Assembly (NCBI GenBank): GCA_003575245.1
Contig: NMQN01000214.1
Location: 1-5,092, forward strand
Reading direction: 5' to 3'
DNA: 5,092 bases
Source of the DNA: Candidatus Atribacteria bacterium 1244-E10-H5-B2
GTDB lineage: Bacteria > Atribacterota > JS1 > SB-45 > 34-128
Part shown: positions 1 through 5,092 of the stretch, piece by piece
Position numbering within the stretch: position 1 is the first letter of the stretch
Layout: the number at the start of each line of letters is the position of its first letter
The notes under the pieces: model-generated
What the model was told of the DNA's origin: nothing
The model's input: only the letters and a program-made list of their open reading frames with translations
Databases searched by the model: none
Made by a program: the position numbers and the translations under genes

Positions 1-93
1 CCAAAAAAGAACACCTCTGGGAAGCAACTGCTGTATTTAACTGTGCTGCCATATATGATAATGGCCTGATACATATGATCTACCGAGCGACCG
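1..93 (+). repeat. Left arm of a perfect 93-bp inverted repeat
   Basis: Every base from 1 to 93 is the reverse complement of 897 to 805 (paired coordinates sum to 898). The match ends at 94/804, where three successive bases disagree. It begins at the window edge, so the arm could be longer. The arm is GH130 coding sequence, not a transposon end or a recombinase-type short repeat. Confidence 0.95.
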
Positions 94-818
94 ATATCGC
101 CCCCAATGGCAAAGAAGGACCCTATATTAATCGTCTTGGCTATGCAGTAAGTAAAGATGGTATTCACTTCAATCGCTTAGAACAACCAATTCTATCCAAT
201 GATACAGAACAAGAAGCCAGAGGCCCGGAAGACCCCAGAATAGTTAAAATAGATGATATCTTTTATATGATGTATACTGGATATAGGGGTAGATCTTTGA
301 AAGATTACAGAATTTGTCTGGCTACTTCCAAAAATCTTATCGATTGGGAAAGACAGGGAGTAGTCCTTGACGAACCCAACAAGGATGCCTCCTTATTCCC
401 GGAAAAAGTCAAGAACAAATATGTAATGTTTCACCGCAGAGAACCGGACATCTGGTTAGCCTATTCTTCTGACCTTAAAAACTGGTATGACCATAAGATT
501 ATAATGAGACCCCTACCCGATTCTGATTGGGAATACAATAAAATAGGAATAGCCGGCCCTCCCATCAAAACCGAGCAGGGTTGGCTCTTAATATACCACG
601 GCACAAGTAAGGAAAAAGGATATTGCCTGGGAGCAGCTTTACTTGATCTGGATAATCCCTCCCAGGTATTAGCCAGACAGACTGAACCAGTATTAGAACC
701 CCAGCTCGATTGGGAAGTAAACGGCTATATTCCTAAAGTAGTATTCAGCTGTGGTCAGGCAGAGAGGGGAGACAGAATCCTGGTCTATTATGGCGGGGCA
801 GATACGGTCGCTCGGTAG
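1..818 (+). CDS. GH130 beta-mannoside phosphorylase/mannosidase, main part; 5' end outside this strand copy, 3' end disrupted
   Basis: GH130 enzymes cleave beta-mannosides, usually by phosphorolysis giving alpha-mannose-1-phosphate, in the cytoplasm. The frame is open from the window edge (first whole codon at 3), so the ATG at 75 is internal: the 24 codons before it read KKEHLWEATAVFN..., a typical GH130 N-terminal strand. Family marks, counted from that ATG, are GPEDPR at 50-55 (with the Asp regarded as catalytic in this family), MMYTGY at 65-70, KDASLFPEK at 103-111, MFHRRE at 118-123, GPP..GWLLIYHG near 161-176 and YYGGADTV at 238-245. No signal peptide is possible in what is visible. The frame ends two codons after ADTV, whereas family members normally run on for roughly 15-30 residues, so the C-terminus is lost at an inverted-repeat junction. 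The N-terminal 15 residues are found on the opposite strand at 896-940. The family call is firm; specificity (mannosylglucose, mannooligosaccharide or beta-1,2-mannan) is not resolved. Confidence 0.88.
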   Translation, partial: KKEHLWEATAVFNCAAIYDNGLIHMIYRATDIAPNGKEGPYINRLGYAVSKDGIHFNRLEQPILSNDTEQEARGPEDPRIVKIDDIFYMMYTGYRGRSLKDYRICLATSKNLIDWERQGVVLDEPNKDASLFPEKVKNKYVMFHRREPDIWLAYSSDLKNWYDHKIIMRPLPDSDWEYNKIGIAGPPIKTEQGWLLIYHGTSKEKGYCLGAALLDLDNPSQVLARQTEPVLEPQLDWEVNGYIPKVVFSCGQAERGDRILVYYGGADTVAR

Positions 819-940
819 ATCATATGTATCAGGCCATTATCATATATGGCAGCACAGTTAAATACAGCAGTTGCTTCCCAGAGGTGTTCTTTTTTGGGTA
901 ATAGGATGGGTTGGTCTGATAGTCTTTTTAATTTTATCAT
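788..940 (-). pseudogene. Detached 5' end of the GH130 gene (50-codon fragment)
   Basis: Reading from the ATG at 940, this strand codes MIKLKRLSDQPILLP and then the same 30 residues as the start of the plus-strand GH130 frame, through MIYRAT. After base 805 the homology stops and the frame runs through five unrelated codons (VSAPP) to a TAA at 788-790. It lies 25 bases after the stop of the GH13 gene and has a ribosome binding site, so it is almost certainly the authentic start of the GH130 gene as the last visible operon member. The NQPIL/DQPILLP plus WEA pattern is typical of GH130 N-termini. As assembled it cannot make enzyme. Joining it to plus-strand bases 94-804 gives a continuous 286-residue frame. 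Confidence 0.85.
805..897 (-). repeat. Right arm of the perfect 93-bp inverted repeat
   Basis: This is the exact reverse complement of 1-93, separated from it by a 711-base spacer (94-804). On the minus strand it is in frame with the GH130 start at 940. On the plus strand it supplies the last residues and the TAG (816-818) that end the other GH130 frame. Beyond 897 the sequence continues as the authentic GH130 start, so this arm is the native context and the left arm plus spacer is the part that looks misplaced. Confidence 0.95.
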
Positions 941-948
941 TTAATTAT

Positions 949-954
949 CTTCCT
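949..954 (-). promoter_or_regulatory. Ribosome binding site of the GH130 gene
   Basis: The minus strand reads AGGAAG, with AGGA 10 bases before the ATG at 940. It sits in the 25-base gap after the GH13 stop codon and supports 940 as the true GH130 start, translated from the upstream operon message. Confidence 0.7.
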
Positions 955-965
955 TTTAAGTTAAT

Positions 966-2699
966 TTATTTAAAAATCTTTAACCACATAATTTGATATG
1001 GTTTTAGAGATATTTTTTCTATATCTATCATTTTCTCAGAGATTATATCAAAATATTCTTTTTTGTTTAAACCGTACTGATTTTTTGTAAAACAAAATTT
1101 CTGCATATTGTCTGTGATATTATGTAAAGCTATTATTTTTTCCTTGCCATCCAGAGAAGTCCGTAATAAAGAAAATATTCCTTTCTTTAAAAATAATACC
1201 TCCTGTTTTCCATTGGGCTGAAATGCTTTTTCAGATTTTCTTTTATGAATTAATTTTGTGAACTCAGTAAATATTTTATATTCTCTGGAATCTGAATTTG
1301 TTAAATCCTTTTTTAATTTATCATATTGAAATTTTTTTCGATTAATAGTTCTTTTCTTGCCTGTTTTCTCTACTCCTTCCAGGTAATTTTCCGTTCCGAA
1401 CAGACTGTGGATGTAGATTCCCGGAACACCTAATAAAGATAATATTATTGCTTGAGAAGCTATAAATTTCTTTATATTTAATTCTTCACTGTTTTTAGAA
1501 TCGGCAATAGCGCTATAGTAAGTAATATTCATTTCATATGGTTTTTTGCTCCCATCTTTCGCAGTTTTATAAGATACAAATCCACCTCTTTCTTTTATGT
1601 TATCTGCAATATCTGTTATTTCCTTGTCGGTTAAAATAGCTTTAACCGGAACAACTCCCAGACCATCATGGGTAGCAAGCACATTAAAGAAAGTTGTTTT
1701 GTCAGAAACATTCTTGAGGCGGGACGCCCATTCAAGAAGGCGGGAAGCATCACCAGTATAGAAGGTATGTAATACTAGCAAGGGGAGGGCAAATTGATAT
1801 ACTAATTGGACTTCATTATAGCCATTGCCAAAATAACTGATATTCTCTTTGTGTGGTACATTTGCCTGTGTAAGCAATAATGTATCAGGAAAAATTTCAT
1901 CAAGAATAGTTCTAATTAATTGAATTATATAATGCGTTTCTTTTAAGTTAATACAGGTTGTTCCTAATTTTTTCCAGATATGACCGATGGCATCCAGGCG
2001 GATAACTCTGGCCCTTTTGCTAGCATAAAATAATATTACATCGATGATTTCCAGTAATACATTTTCATTTGCAAAATTAATATCTATCTGGTCTGTGCTA
2101 TAAGTCGTCCAGAGATAAATATCTTCCCCTTTTCTTTTAAATTTTGTTAATAACGGATGGGTTCTTGCCCTGGTAACTGAAGATAGATCAATATCTTTAT
2201 CAACACTAATAAAATAGTCATCATATTTGGGATTGCCCTTTAGATATTCTTTAAACCATATACTTTCAGAGGAAATATGATTGGCTACTAAATCAAACAT
2301 TAAATTGAATTTTTGGCTTATATCCTCAATATCTTTCCAATCCCCTAAAGCCGGATTAACTTTTTTATAATCTATAACCGAAAATCCATCATCAGAAGAG
2401 TAAGGATAAAATGGTAGTATATGAATAATATTTATTGCCCGGTTAAGATACTCATCGGAAAATTTAAACAAGGATTGCAGGAGGTTTTTGTTGCTTGCTT
2501 GAATATTATCTCCATAGGTAATTAAAACAACATCTTTTTCATTTAAAAAATCAGCTTTTGGAATTTTACTGGCACTATTCTTTTGATATCTATCGATTAA
2601 TTCATTAATCTTCTTAAATATATTTTGAGCTCTATCCCTACCATAAAGGAATAGCAGTTTGTTTATTACTATTTCCTTACTTATTTTAGATACTGACAT
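966..2699 (-). CDS. GH13 subfamily 18 phosphorylase-like enzyme (sucrose/sucrose-6-phosphate/glucosylglycerate phosphorylase type), acid/base Glu replaced by Gln
   Basis: Members of this subfamily split an alpha-glucoside with phosphate, giving alpha-glucose-1-phosphate and the free acceptor, in the cytoplasm. Counting from the ATG at 2699 (577 residues, normal for the family): an N-terminal helix with KLLFLYGRDRA; ILPFYPYSSDDGFSVIDY near 94-111; region I DLVANH at 136-141; TDQIDINFAN near 202-211; nucleophile in VIRLDAIGH (Asp236); LLTQANVPHKENISYFG at 275-291; THDG with the stabilising Asp345; and a C-terminal beta domain. In relatives the third region reads T-E-x-N-V-P-H; here Gln278 (codon CAG, 1866-1868) takes the place of the acid/base Glu. 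The enzyme may therefore be inactive, altered, or affected by a base error. I chose the ATG at 2699 because GGAG lies 12 bases upstream; a TTG at 2729 would add 10 residues but has no ribosome binding site. It follows the repressor gene by 66 bases. The family is sure; the acceptor sugar is not. Confidence 0.9.
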   Translation of the reverse strand: MSVSKISKEIVINKLLFLYGRDRAQNIFKKINELIDRYQKNSASKIPKADFLNEKDVVLITYGDNIQASNKNLLQSLFKFSDEYLNRAINIIHILPFYPYSSDDGFSVIDYKKVNPALGDWKDIEDISQKFNLMFDLVANHISSESIWFKEYLKGNPKYDDYFISVDKDIDLSSVTRARTHPLLTKFKRKGEDIYLWTTYSTDQIDINFANENVLLEIIDVILFYASKRARVIRLDAIGHIWKKLGTTCINLKETHYIIQLIRTILDEIFPDTLLLTQANVPHKENISYFGNGYNEVQLVYQFALPLLVLHTFYTGDASRLLEWASRLKNVSDKTTFFNVLATHDGLGVVPVKAILTDKEITDIADNIKERGGFVSYKTAKDGSKKPYEMNITYYSAIADSKNSEELNIKKFIASQAIILSLLGVPGIYIHSLFGTENYLEGVEKTGKKRTINRKKFQYDKLKKDLTNSDSREYKIFTEFTKLIHKRKSEKAFQPNGKQEVLFLKKGIFSLLRTSLDGKEKIIALHNITDNMQKFCFTKNQYGLNKKEYFDIISEKMIDIEKISLKPYQIMWLKIFK

Positions 2700-2708
2700 G
2701 TTGTACTG

Positions 2709-2715
2709 CTTCTCC
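2709..2715 (-). promoter_or_regulatory. Probable ribosome binding site deciding the GH13 start
   Basis: The minus strand reads GGAGAAG; GGAG is 12 bases before the ATG at 2699, slightly long but usable. Nothing similar precedes the TTG at 2729, which favours the shorter protein. Confidence 0.45.
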
Positions 2716-2765
2716 GATATGGTTTTCAATAAAAAGACTAGATTATTTAATAAGGTTTCATCGTC

Positions 2766-3779
2766 CTAAGTAGAGTTTCTGATAATTAATTTTGGCTGGA
2801 ATATAATTCTTTGGCGTGTATAGATCTCAGGATCTTTCAAATGTTGATCTAAAATTTTTATTGCCCCTTCTGCCATCTTTCTTACAGACTGACTAATCGT
2901 TGTCAAAGCCGGGTAATAGTATTCTGATAGCGGAATATTATCAATTCCAAGCACAGCAATATCCTGGGGTATTTTTAATCCTTTTTCCTGAATAGCATGA
3001 TAAACCCCTATCGCCCTCTGGTCACCGGAGATAAAAAGGGCATCAGGAGCTTCTTCTTCTAAAATATTCTTCATCTTTTCATAAGCAAATTCGGGGTTCA
3101 TGATTCCATAATCAATATGCATTGATTTACTCTTGATATGATAATCATTGCAAGCTTGAATAAATCCTTCTGTTCTATCCTGATTTACCGTGAAATTTTC
3201 ATCCCCCAGAAAAAATCTAATAGACTTACTCCCTCTTTTGATAAGATGTTCAGCCCCCAAATAACCCGCTTTAACATTATCAAGATTAACGAAAGAAGTA
3301 GATTCATAAACATTATCTCTGCCTACAATAACAAAAGGAATCTTCCTTTCCACAAGATAATCAACCCGGCGATCAATTTCCCGAGTATCAAAAATTACAG
3401 CGCCGTCTGCAAAGCCATTTTTTAGCAAATAGAAACCATCATGTTCATTTTCTTCAACTTTGGAAGCTGAAGATTTTGAAACTATTAATTTATACCCTAA
3501 TCTATTGGCTTCACTATCTAAATACCGTATAAAAACATTATGGAAATTTCCTATATAATTCGCTGCATTTTTTTCTACAAAAACTATCAAAATCCCGGTT
3601 GTTTTTTTTCTAAGTGACCTGGCAATAAGATTAACCTGGTACCCGGTTGATTCAATGATTTTTAATATTTTACTTCTTGTTTCCTTCTTTACTTTTTTTT
3701 CTTCATTTACAACTCTGGAAACCGTCCGTGGAGAAACGTTAGCGATTTTTGCGATATCTTTAATCGTATATTCCTTTAT
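2766..3779 (-). CDS. LacI-family transcriptional repressor with apparent AUA start codon
   Basis: This is a DNA-binding regulator that probably responds to a sugar made or used by the neighbouring enzymes. Read from the ATA at 3779 it has 337 residues, the normal LacI length. Residues 4-25 form the helix-turn-helix (TIKDIAKIANVS, then PRTVSRVVN as recognition helix), 50-58 the hinge helix (NLIARSLRK), and about 60-337 the periplasmic-binding-protein-like effector and dimer domain, with VNLDNVKAGYLGAEHL, FISGDQRAIGVYHAI, LGIDNIPLSEYYYPALTTI and a final PKLIIRNST. No ATG, GTG or TTG lies between the in-frame upstream TGA and codon 64 (TTG at 3590), a start that would delete the whole DNA-binding domain. 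A strong ribosome binding site sits 9 bases before the ATA. The stop is TAG at 2766-2768. It starts 23 bases after the glycosyltransferase stop and is probably co-transcribed with it. No clear LacI-type palindromic operator was found in the visible gaps; one may lie upstream of the window. Confidence 0.9.
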   Translation of the reverse strand: MKEYTIKDIAKIANVSPRTVSRVVNEEKKVKKETRSKILKIIESTGYQVNLIARSLRKKTTGILIVFVEKNAANYIGNFHNVFIRYLDSEANRLGYKLIVSKSSASKVEENEHDGFYLLKNGFADGAVIFDTREIDRRVDYLVERKIPFVIVGRDNVYESTSFVNLDNVKAGYLGAEHLIKRGSKSIRFFLGDENFTVNQDRTEGFIQACNDYHIKSKSMHIDYGIMNPEFAYEKMKNILEEEAPDALFISGDQRAIGVYHAIQEKGLKIPQDIAVLGIDNIPLSEYYYPALTTISQSVRKMAEGAIKILDQHLKDPEIYTRQRIIFQPKLIIRNST

Positions 3780-3784
3780 TTTAA

Positions 3785-3793
3785 ATCACCCCC
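3785..3793 (-). promoter_or_regulatory. Strong ribosome binding site that fixes the AUA start of the repressor
   Basis: The minus strand reads GGGGGTGAT, differing by one base from the full anti-16S complement GGAGGTGAT. Nine bases separate the G-run from the ATA at 3779. It occupies the short gap after the glycosyltransferase stop and has no other in-frame start to serve. Confidence 0.75.
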
Positions 3794-3802
3794 ACAAAAT
3801 CA

Positions 3803-5092
3803 TTATATAATCATTTTTAATTTTTCTTCCAAGCTTTCATGTGAAAAAAATTCTCTTCCTAATTGGAAATTTTCTTCAACCATCTTTTCTCTGTATCCTT
3901 TATCTATAAGTAATTTTATACATTCTCCGGCAGCACGCTTTATTACTCCTTTGCTCACCTTTGCCAGACCATATTCATCAAGTTCATATTTGTCCCCTAA
4001 AGAAATAACTTCAAATCCTTTTCCTTTGATATCTTCTTTGTAAACATCATACTCAAATACCAACATCGGTTTTTTGGCGAATAAACCTTCTAAAAACTGA
4101 TTTCCCCATCCCTCCTGAATGCTCGGATAGGTTATTATATCAGCAAAAACATATGTATCCCATAAGGAATATGTCTTGTTATTATTTTTAACACATCTTG
4201 AATGTTCAACCAGATTATTGACAAACAGCATTTCTACATTGCGTTCTTTTGCCCTGGTTTTAATTCTTTCAACATAATCATCTGCGGTCTCTATCATGCC
4301 CGCTAAAACGAGAACGATCCTGCTATTCCTATTAAAACTTTGTCCATTATATAATTTTACTTCTTCAAGTATTTTCCTATTTTCTTTTTTCTGCATTTCC
4401 CCAACCACATCTATGGCCAGTTCGATTGCTTTTCTATTTGTTACCCTGGTTGCCTGCAGCATAAGAATATCATTATCTTTAATACCTAATTTTTCTCTAA
4501 AATCTTTATTGTAATTATCAGCATCCCATAACTTCTCATCAAAATCAAATACATTAGGTATAACAACAGAATCCAGATTTCTTCTCACTTTCAATTCTTT
4601 TTGGACAATACTATTAATCACTACATGTGAGATCAAATCGTCTTTTGGGGGATAGTATTCCTCAAGGACCTTACGAACGAAATTGCATGTTGGCTGAGAA
4701 AAATTATCCCTTTCCCAGTAAAAATCATGATGGTGTCCGATACATCTAATACCTAATTCCTTGATGACCTTAGTAAACGCCATAGCAGTAGGTATGCTTC
4801 TGCCGATTGATAAAATATTATTAGGAACAATTAAATCTATCTTATTTTCTATTAAGATTTTTTTCAAACCTTCTTCAATTTTCAAAGTTAGCTTTTTTAT
4901 AGCTCTTATTAATTCATCCTCATCCTGATAGTCTTCTAATTTTAAGTAGGCATTTCTTTCAATTTTCAAATCCTCTTCAAATCTATAATTCATTTCCGGT
5001 ATAACATAACCATCGGATGTACCTGTACTGCCGGCAATAAAATATACTTTATGTCCCATATTTTCTAAAACCTTTTTCCATTTATCCATCTC
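3803..5092 (-). CDS. GT4-type (GT-B fold) retaining glycosyltransferase, N-terminus cut by window edge
   Basis: It transfers a sugar from an activated donor (UDP-, ADP- or GDP-sugar) to an acceptor, most likely in the cytoplasm; no membrane segment or signal peptide is visible. Counting from the Met at 5089 (428 residues): N-terminal Rossmann domain with MGHKVYFIAGSTG at 11-23, acceptor-side HHHDFYWER at 119-127, VIPNVFD at 176-182 entering the second domain, QATRVTNRKAIELAI at 212-226 (Arg215 and Lys220 in the usual donor-phosphate positions), and YPSIQEGWGNQFLEG at 321-335, whose E326-x7-E334 is the GT4 signature. The Met at 5089 is probably internal: it lacks the usual first beta strand and glycine-rich loop, the preceding codon is GAG in the same frame, and the sequence M-D-K-W-x-x-V-L resembles a helix normally some 15-20 residues into such proteins. 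It is the first visible operon gene. A role in making a glucosyl- or mannosylglycerate-type compatible solute is possible but not shown. Confidence 0.85.
   Translation of the reverse strand, partial: EMDKWKKVLENMGHKVYFIAGSTGTSDGYVIPEMNYRFEEDLKIERNAYLKLEDYQDEDELIRAIKKLTLKIEEGLKKILIENKIDLIVPNNILSIGRSIPTAMAFTKVIKELGIRCIGHHHDFYWERDNFSQPTCNFVRKVLEEYYPPKDDLISHVVINSIVQKELKVRRNLDSVVIPNVFDFDEKLWDADNYNKDFREKLGIKDNDILMLQATRVTNRKAIELAIDVVGEMQKKENRKILEEVKLYNGQSFNRNSRIVLVLAGMIETADDYVERIKTRAKERNVEMLFVNNLVEHSRCVKNNNKTYSLWDTYVFADIITYPSIQEGWGNQFLEGLFAKKPMLVFEYDVYKEDIKGKGFEVISLGDKYELDEYGLAKVSKGVIKRAAGECIKLLIDKGYREKMVEENFQLGREFFSHESLEEKLKMII

Follow-up and report, generated by a model that had tools for sequence, protein, structure and literature searches.

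Intragenic invertons are a kind of inverton that overlaps a gene. According to the excerpt of PMC11892184 consulted here, the arms of invertons are 10–40 nt. Inverted joins have also been described among MDA products. The portion of Lasken and Stockwell (2007; PMC1855051) used in this work reports that 406 of 475 MDA chimeras were inverted, that the joined parts lay <10 kb apart in 337 of these 406, and that complementary bases were present at 93.5% of the inverted junctions <10 kb. Single-cell genomics of Atribacterota exists, as the title of PMC10826368 indicates. Finally, extracts from two papers on JGI metagenomes describe assembly with SOAPdenovo over a series of k-mers. In one, k was 85, 89, 93, 97, 101 and 105, and Newbler was used for contigs <1,800 bp (PMC3764933). 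In the other, k was 81, 85, 89, 93, 97 and 101, Newbler was again used <1,800 bp, and minimus2 was run with a minimum overlap of 80 (PMC5369317).

Here, we describe a GH130 gene that lies in two facing pieces in a contig of Candidatus Atribacteria bacterium 1244-E10-H5-B2. We refer to the whole stretch of DNA analysed, 5,092 nucleotides in length, as the window.

The inverted repeat and the native GH130 gene

A sequence-only reading of this DNA had reported a perfect 93-bp inverted repeat. The repeat comparison within the window bore this out: bases 1–93 are the exact reverse complement of bases 805–897 (93/93), and the two arms are 711 nt apart. The runner-up inverted pair in the window was 30 nt long at 70% identity. 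Across the window and 79 related loci, together 865,947 bases, 1–93/805–897 was the single perfect inverted repeat of at least 30 nt. These two comparisons rule out a chance repeat. The features of the window are as follows.

1–93, plus strand: left arm; GH130 coding sequence in the sense direction (the final two bases of codon 15, codons 16–45 and the opening base of codon 46), terminating at the contig end
94–804, plus strand: loop; the remaining GH130 sequence to near the 3' end, in the same order as in relatives
805–808, plus strand: turn point; CGGT, shared by the native gene and the complement of 90–93
805–897, minus strand: right arm; the identical GH130 5' coding sequence on the opposite strand
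898–940, minus strand: GH130 start; ATG at 940, 14 codons plus one base
966–2729, minus strand: gene for a GH13 protein similar to sucrose/glucosylglycerate phosphorylases; lies upstream of GH130, in the same direction
2766–3785, minus strand: LacI-family regulator; the listed ORF starts at TTG 3590 and the frame is open up to 3785
3803–5089, minus strand: glycosyltransferase resembling mannosylglucosylglycerate synthase

The native gene is of the beta-1,2-mannobiose phosphorylase type and, as a GH130 gene, ordinary. Despite its broken form, it scored 453.9 bits against NF052550 (beta-1,2-mannobiose phosphorylase; cut-off 450) and 207.9 bits against PF04041 (cut-off 26). Residues 1–269 of the GH130 piece match PDB 9fj8, a solved 1,2-beta-oligomannan phosphorylase.

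The minus-strand frame that begins at ATG 940, downstream of a ribosome-binding-like stretch (AAAAGGAAG, 949–957, minus strand), supplies the 15 residues missing from the plus-strand GH130 piece and stays open through 94–804. Homologues were counted among the best 120 of 7,829 proteins, and in 95 of these 120 exactly 15 residues precede the plus-strand piece, confirming the earlier claim that the minus-strand piece carries 15 N-terminal residues. It had further been claimed that inverting 94–804 restores the gene. This was borne out at one end only: the N-terminal join is in frame, but the C-terminus is absent. After inversion the frame ends ...VYYGGADTVAR, then stop, and by alignment count 13–26 residues lie past that Val in all 120 of the best 120 homologues. 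The C-terminus is missing in either orientation because the turn sits at the inner edge of the arm.

Of 125 relatives from genome contigs, the best 80 were retained, corresponding to the 79 distinct loci. Detailed comparison covered four of these: L018 (Atribacterota), L002 (Candidatus Atribacteria), and L001 and L003, which are MAGs under other names. In each of the four, the GH130 start is followed by the arm and then by sequence like 94 onward, with no rearrangement; the native order is thus ATG 940, arm, 94, 804. The inverted arrangement of the window was seen in none of these four relatives. L018 aligned in a single block (3,194 columns, 89.3%) to the minus strand of the window running from 3584 down to the arm, followed by 1–93 and then 94–502. 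LacI, GH13 and GH130 all run in one direction in L018, the only one of the four in which the window's upstream neighbours (LacI and GH13) precede GH130. The L018 contig ends inside GH130, so the 3' end is not covered. GH130 is a single open gene in L001 (295 codons) and L002 (294 codons), and in L003 one match spans query residues 1–269 and the gene continues to its own stop. The genes upstream of GH130 in L002 are others. In L001 (positions 1–1916), a glycosyltransferase lies directly upstream of GH130, the intervening LacI and GH13 genes of the window being absent.

The DNA identity of the four unrearranged relatives is 82–89%, and the listed proteins are all at most 88% identical in a collection clustered at 90%, in which a same-strain copy may hide in a cluster. 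The two arms of the window differ from each other at 0 of 93 positions, whereas between the arm and the four relatives the differences number 8, 12, 16 and 14 of 93. The copy is therefore either very recent or not biological. Overall, the inverted repeat is a genuine feature of the record, yet most likely not of the organism.

The genes upstream of GH130 belong to an ordinary setting. The GH13 protein scored 235 bits against sucrose phosphorylase (cut-off 334.4), and some of its homologues carry the name of sucrose phosphorylase or of glucosylglycerate phosphorylase. The glycosyltransferase scored 416.9 bits against mannosylglucosylglycerate synthase (cut-off 640). Both scores are below their cut-offs. 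It is reasonable to view 966–5089 on the minus strand, together with GH130, as a putative small compatible-solute operon for a mannosylated glucosylglycerate, a gene content that is itself ordinary. Upstream of TTG 3590, the minus-strand frame at 3591–3785 resembles a LacI HTH by eye, and no ATG, GTG or TTG start is listed there; a rarer start codon of the LacI-type gene or an error in its sequence may account for this. No structured RNA in the window matched Rfam at gathering thresholds. Between 1 and 1200, promoter-like signals numbered 6 versus 4.3 in shuffles, and terminator-like signals 1 versus 1.1, differences too small to support any claim.

The contig ends and the turn

The GH13 protein corresponds to P0121 of the protein collection (577 aa, 100% identity), which is annotated as window-encoded and listed for a single contig; at 5,092 bp, this contig has the same size as the window. 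On this basis the window appears to be the entire 5,092-bp contig, and we took base 1, where the left arm ends, to be a contig end. This agrees with the sequence-only reading, which had pointed to the arm reaching the window edge and had proposed checking for a contig end at that position. At the right end, the family-model match of the glycosyltransferase starts at model position 20, and this gene is therefore probably truncated by the right contig end.

At the turn, plus-strand similarity to L001, L002 and L003 terminates at 808, whereas the arm begins at 805, so that CGGT (805–808) fits both sides. The stop at 808 rests on the plus-strand alignments of these three relatives, and the query of the second alignment itself ended at 808. 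In five relatives the sequence at the turn is GATACGGTAAT (L001, L002 and L006), GATACAGTTAT (L003) and GATTCTGCAAT (L005). With the native continuation taken from these relatives, the window would leave the native gene right after CGGT. A native GTC codon would lengthen the microhomology from 4 to 5 nt. Microhomology of at least 4 nt occurred at 1.8% of random fold-back points, the points being drawn from 1–804 of the window in place of the native gene.

The minus-strand alignments of L001, L002 and L018 extend beyond the arm to 795 because of similarity at GATA; that of L003 alone stops at 810. GATA (801–804) can pair with TATC (95–98) across a 1-nt bulge, the partner site at 90–98 being ACCG-A-TATC. 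The window has one occurrence of the pattern for this bulged 8-base pairing of the strand end GATACGGT, 15 of 200 shuffles have one or more, and the pairing was picked after being seen. The bulged pairing at the turn is thus suggestive rather than strong.

A hairpin molecule was simulated from the letters of the window and assembled at k = 55, 77, 85, 93, 99 and 127. The arm equalled k each time, by construction, and k = 93 returned window 1–897 letter for letter. We infer that the record was assembled with k = 93, a value that appears in the extracts of PMC3764933 and PMC5369317, neither paper being known to be the source of the record. The value is a fit, however, and arms of 81, 85, 89, 97, 101 or 105 would have been equally fitting. 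Among 120 IMG/VR loci (1,049,164 bases), three had perfect inverted repeats of at least 30 nt and none had arms of at least 40, too few for a test of a k-mer signature. One of the three, the contig L149, carries a perfect 58-bp palindrome from its first base (1–58), another possible fold-back at a contig end. In the same collection, 10 stretches matched the GH130 pattern and none encoded a relative. The exact 26-base turn sequence had 0 matches there, which carries little weight in a collection of viral contigs.

A probable fold-back chimera and its rivals

The window is very probably a fold-back chimera at a contig end: the gene would be intact in the organism, and a copied strand would have turned back during amplification or assembly. 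Two features of the locus are those of the fold-back class. Nearby segments of one locus are joined in inverted orientation, and the join has short complementarity (CGGT), the native side of which is drawn from L001, L002 and L006.

A single template switch could yield such a contig. A strand would be copied from the operon through GH130, and its 3' end would be freed near 808. The freed end (...GATACGGT) could anneal to ACCG-A-TATC at 90–98, ∼710 nt back, and then be extended. The product would read, in order, operon, GH130 minus its last ∼13 codons, turn, complement of the GH130 start and complement of the operon. A de Bruijn assembler would merge the two flanks, as they are identical in sequence, and would keep the loop with exactly one flank k-mer at each end. 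The loop contig, at 897 bp, would enter the <1,800 bp pool of a pipeline like those above and could be joined to the flank at one end through the shared 93 bp, so that the other copy would stay behind as a terminal inverted repeat. In this scheme, amplification of the library (e.g. by MDA), assembly at k = 93 and the direction of priming are all presumed. Since one event would explain the whole window (sense GH130, turn, antisense start and antisense operon), a flip is unnecessary. The earlier preference for a fold-back chimera over an invertible switch is thus supported by the gene order of the relatives, the 4-nt microhomology, the contig end at base 1 and an arm equal to a published k. The artefact is something we infer from the assembled record.

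One observation sits awkwardly with a fold-back chimera. Assembly through the turn suggests that the junction outweighed the native continuation, which would be odd for an unamplified library. Mainly for this reason we leave a small share of the probability to a genuine head-to-head inverted duplication in the Atribacterota cell, an alternative that is improbable but not negligible. The mannosylglucosylglycerate-type operon and the 5' part of GH130 would then occur twice around a 711-bp spacer. The duplication would exceed 93 bp, would have arisen by in vivo template switching at the 4-nt microhomology or by repair, and would have truncated GH130. The junction was deep enough for assembly, and a true inverted duplication >93 bp would be expected to give the same assembly graph and the same contig; with base 1 at a contig end, the real repeat may indeed be longer than 93 bp. 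Weighing against a duplication, the arms are without mismatch, and 0 of 79 related loci, many of them distant relatives, had a perfect inverted repeat of at least 30 nt. A duplication would also remove a C-terminal stretch that was found in 120 of 120 listed homologues (the best 120 of 7,829).

An ON/OFF inverton, in which flipping 94–804 switches the GH130 enzyme, is very unlikely, and we rejected it. Perfect inverted repeats do bound a segment, and after a flip no stop interrupts the reading frame across the N-terminus. However, the C-terminus is still missing after the flip, so that a full GH130 is found in neither orientation, and one of the arms is the gene's own 5' coding sequence. Moreover, the arms are 93 nt rather than the 10–40 nt stated for invertons in the excerpt of PMC11892184. 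GH130 is unsplit in the four relatives compared, that of L018 being cut only by its own contig end. The sequence-only reading had remarked that no recombinase gene was in view; likewise, no recombinase was present among the four proteins scanned in the 5 kb that the window shows, but recombinases may act from afar.

The least credible alternative, to which we attach next to no probability, is a pure assembly misjoin in which unrelated ends were merged through the CGGT overlap with no chimeric molecule: the join does sit at microhomology, but 4 bases is far below the k-mers >80 or overlaps of 80 given in the extracts of PMC3764933 and PMC5369317, if such a pipeline was used, and with such overlap requirements a read crossing the turn should exist.

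The locus carries little biological weight. Its use is as a rule for scanning assembled metagenomes: where a perfect inverted repeat has an arm at a contig end, a size equal to a known assembly k-mer and the coding sequence of the gene itself, a graph-loop fold-back should be suspected before an invertible switch.

Comparison with described systems

With respect to the encoded enzyme, the window resembles GH130 beta-1,2-mannobiose phosphorylases (NF052550; PDB 9fj8 and 7fip) in its family score above the cut-off and its match to 9fj8 over 1–269. It differs from them in that its N-terminus is on the opposite strand and at least 13 C-terminal residues are missing.

Like the invertons described in the excerpt of PMC11892184, the window contains a gene-overlapping segment bounded by inverted repeats. 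In contrast to these, its 93-nt arms copy the 5' end of the gene, the four scanned proteins include no recombinase, a full gene results from neither orientation and the loci searched contained no second example.

In the terminal inverted repeat produced by simulated de Bruijn assembly of a hairpin, as in the window, an arm stops at the contig end; its size is that of k, as would be that of the window's arm at k = 93. The difference is that k is set in the simulation and deduced for the assembly of the window.

Compared with the inverted MDA chimeras in the portion of PMC1855051 used here, the case of the window is known from an assembled contig alone, and MDA of the library is presumed. It shares with those chimeras an inverted join, sites <10 kb apart (∼710 nt in the window) and short complementarity at the junction.
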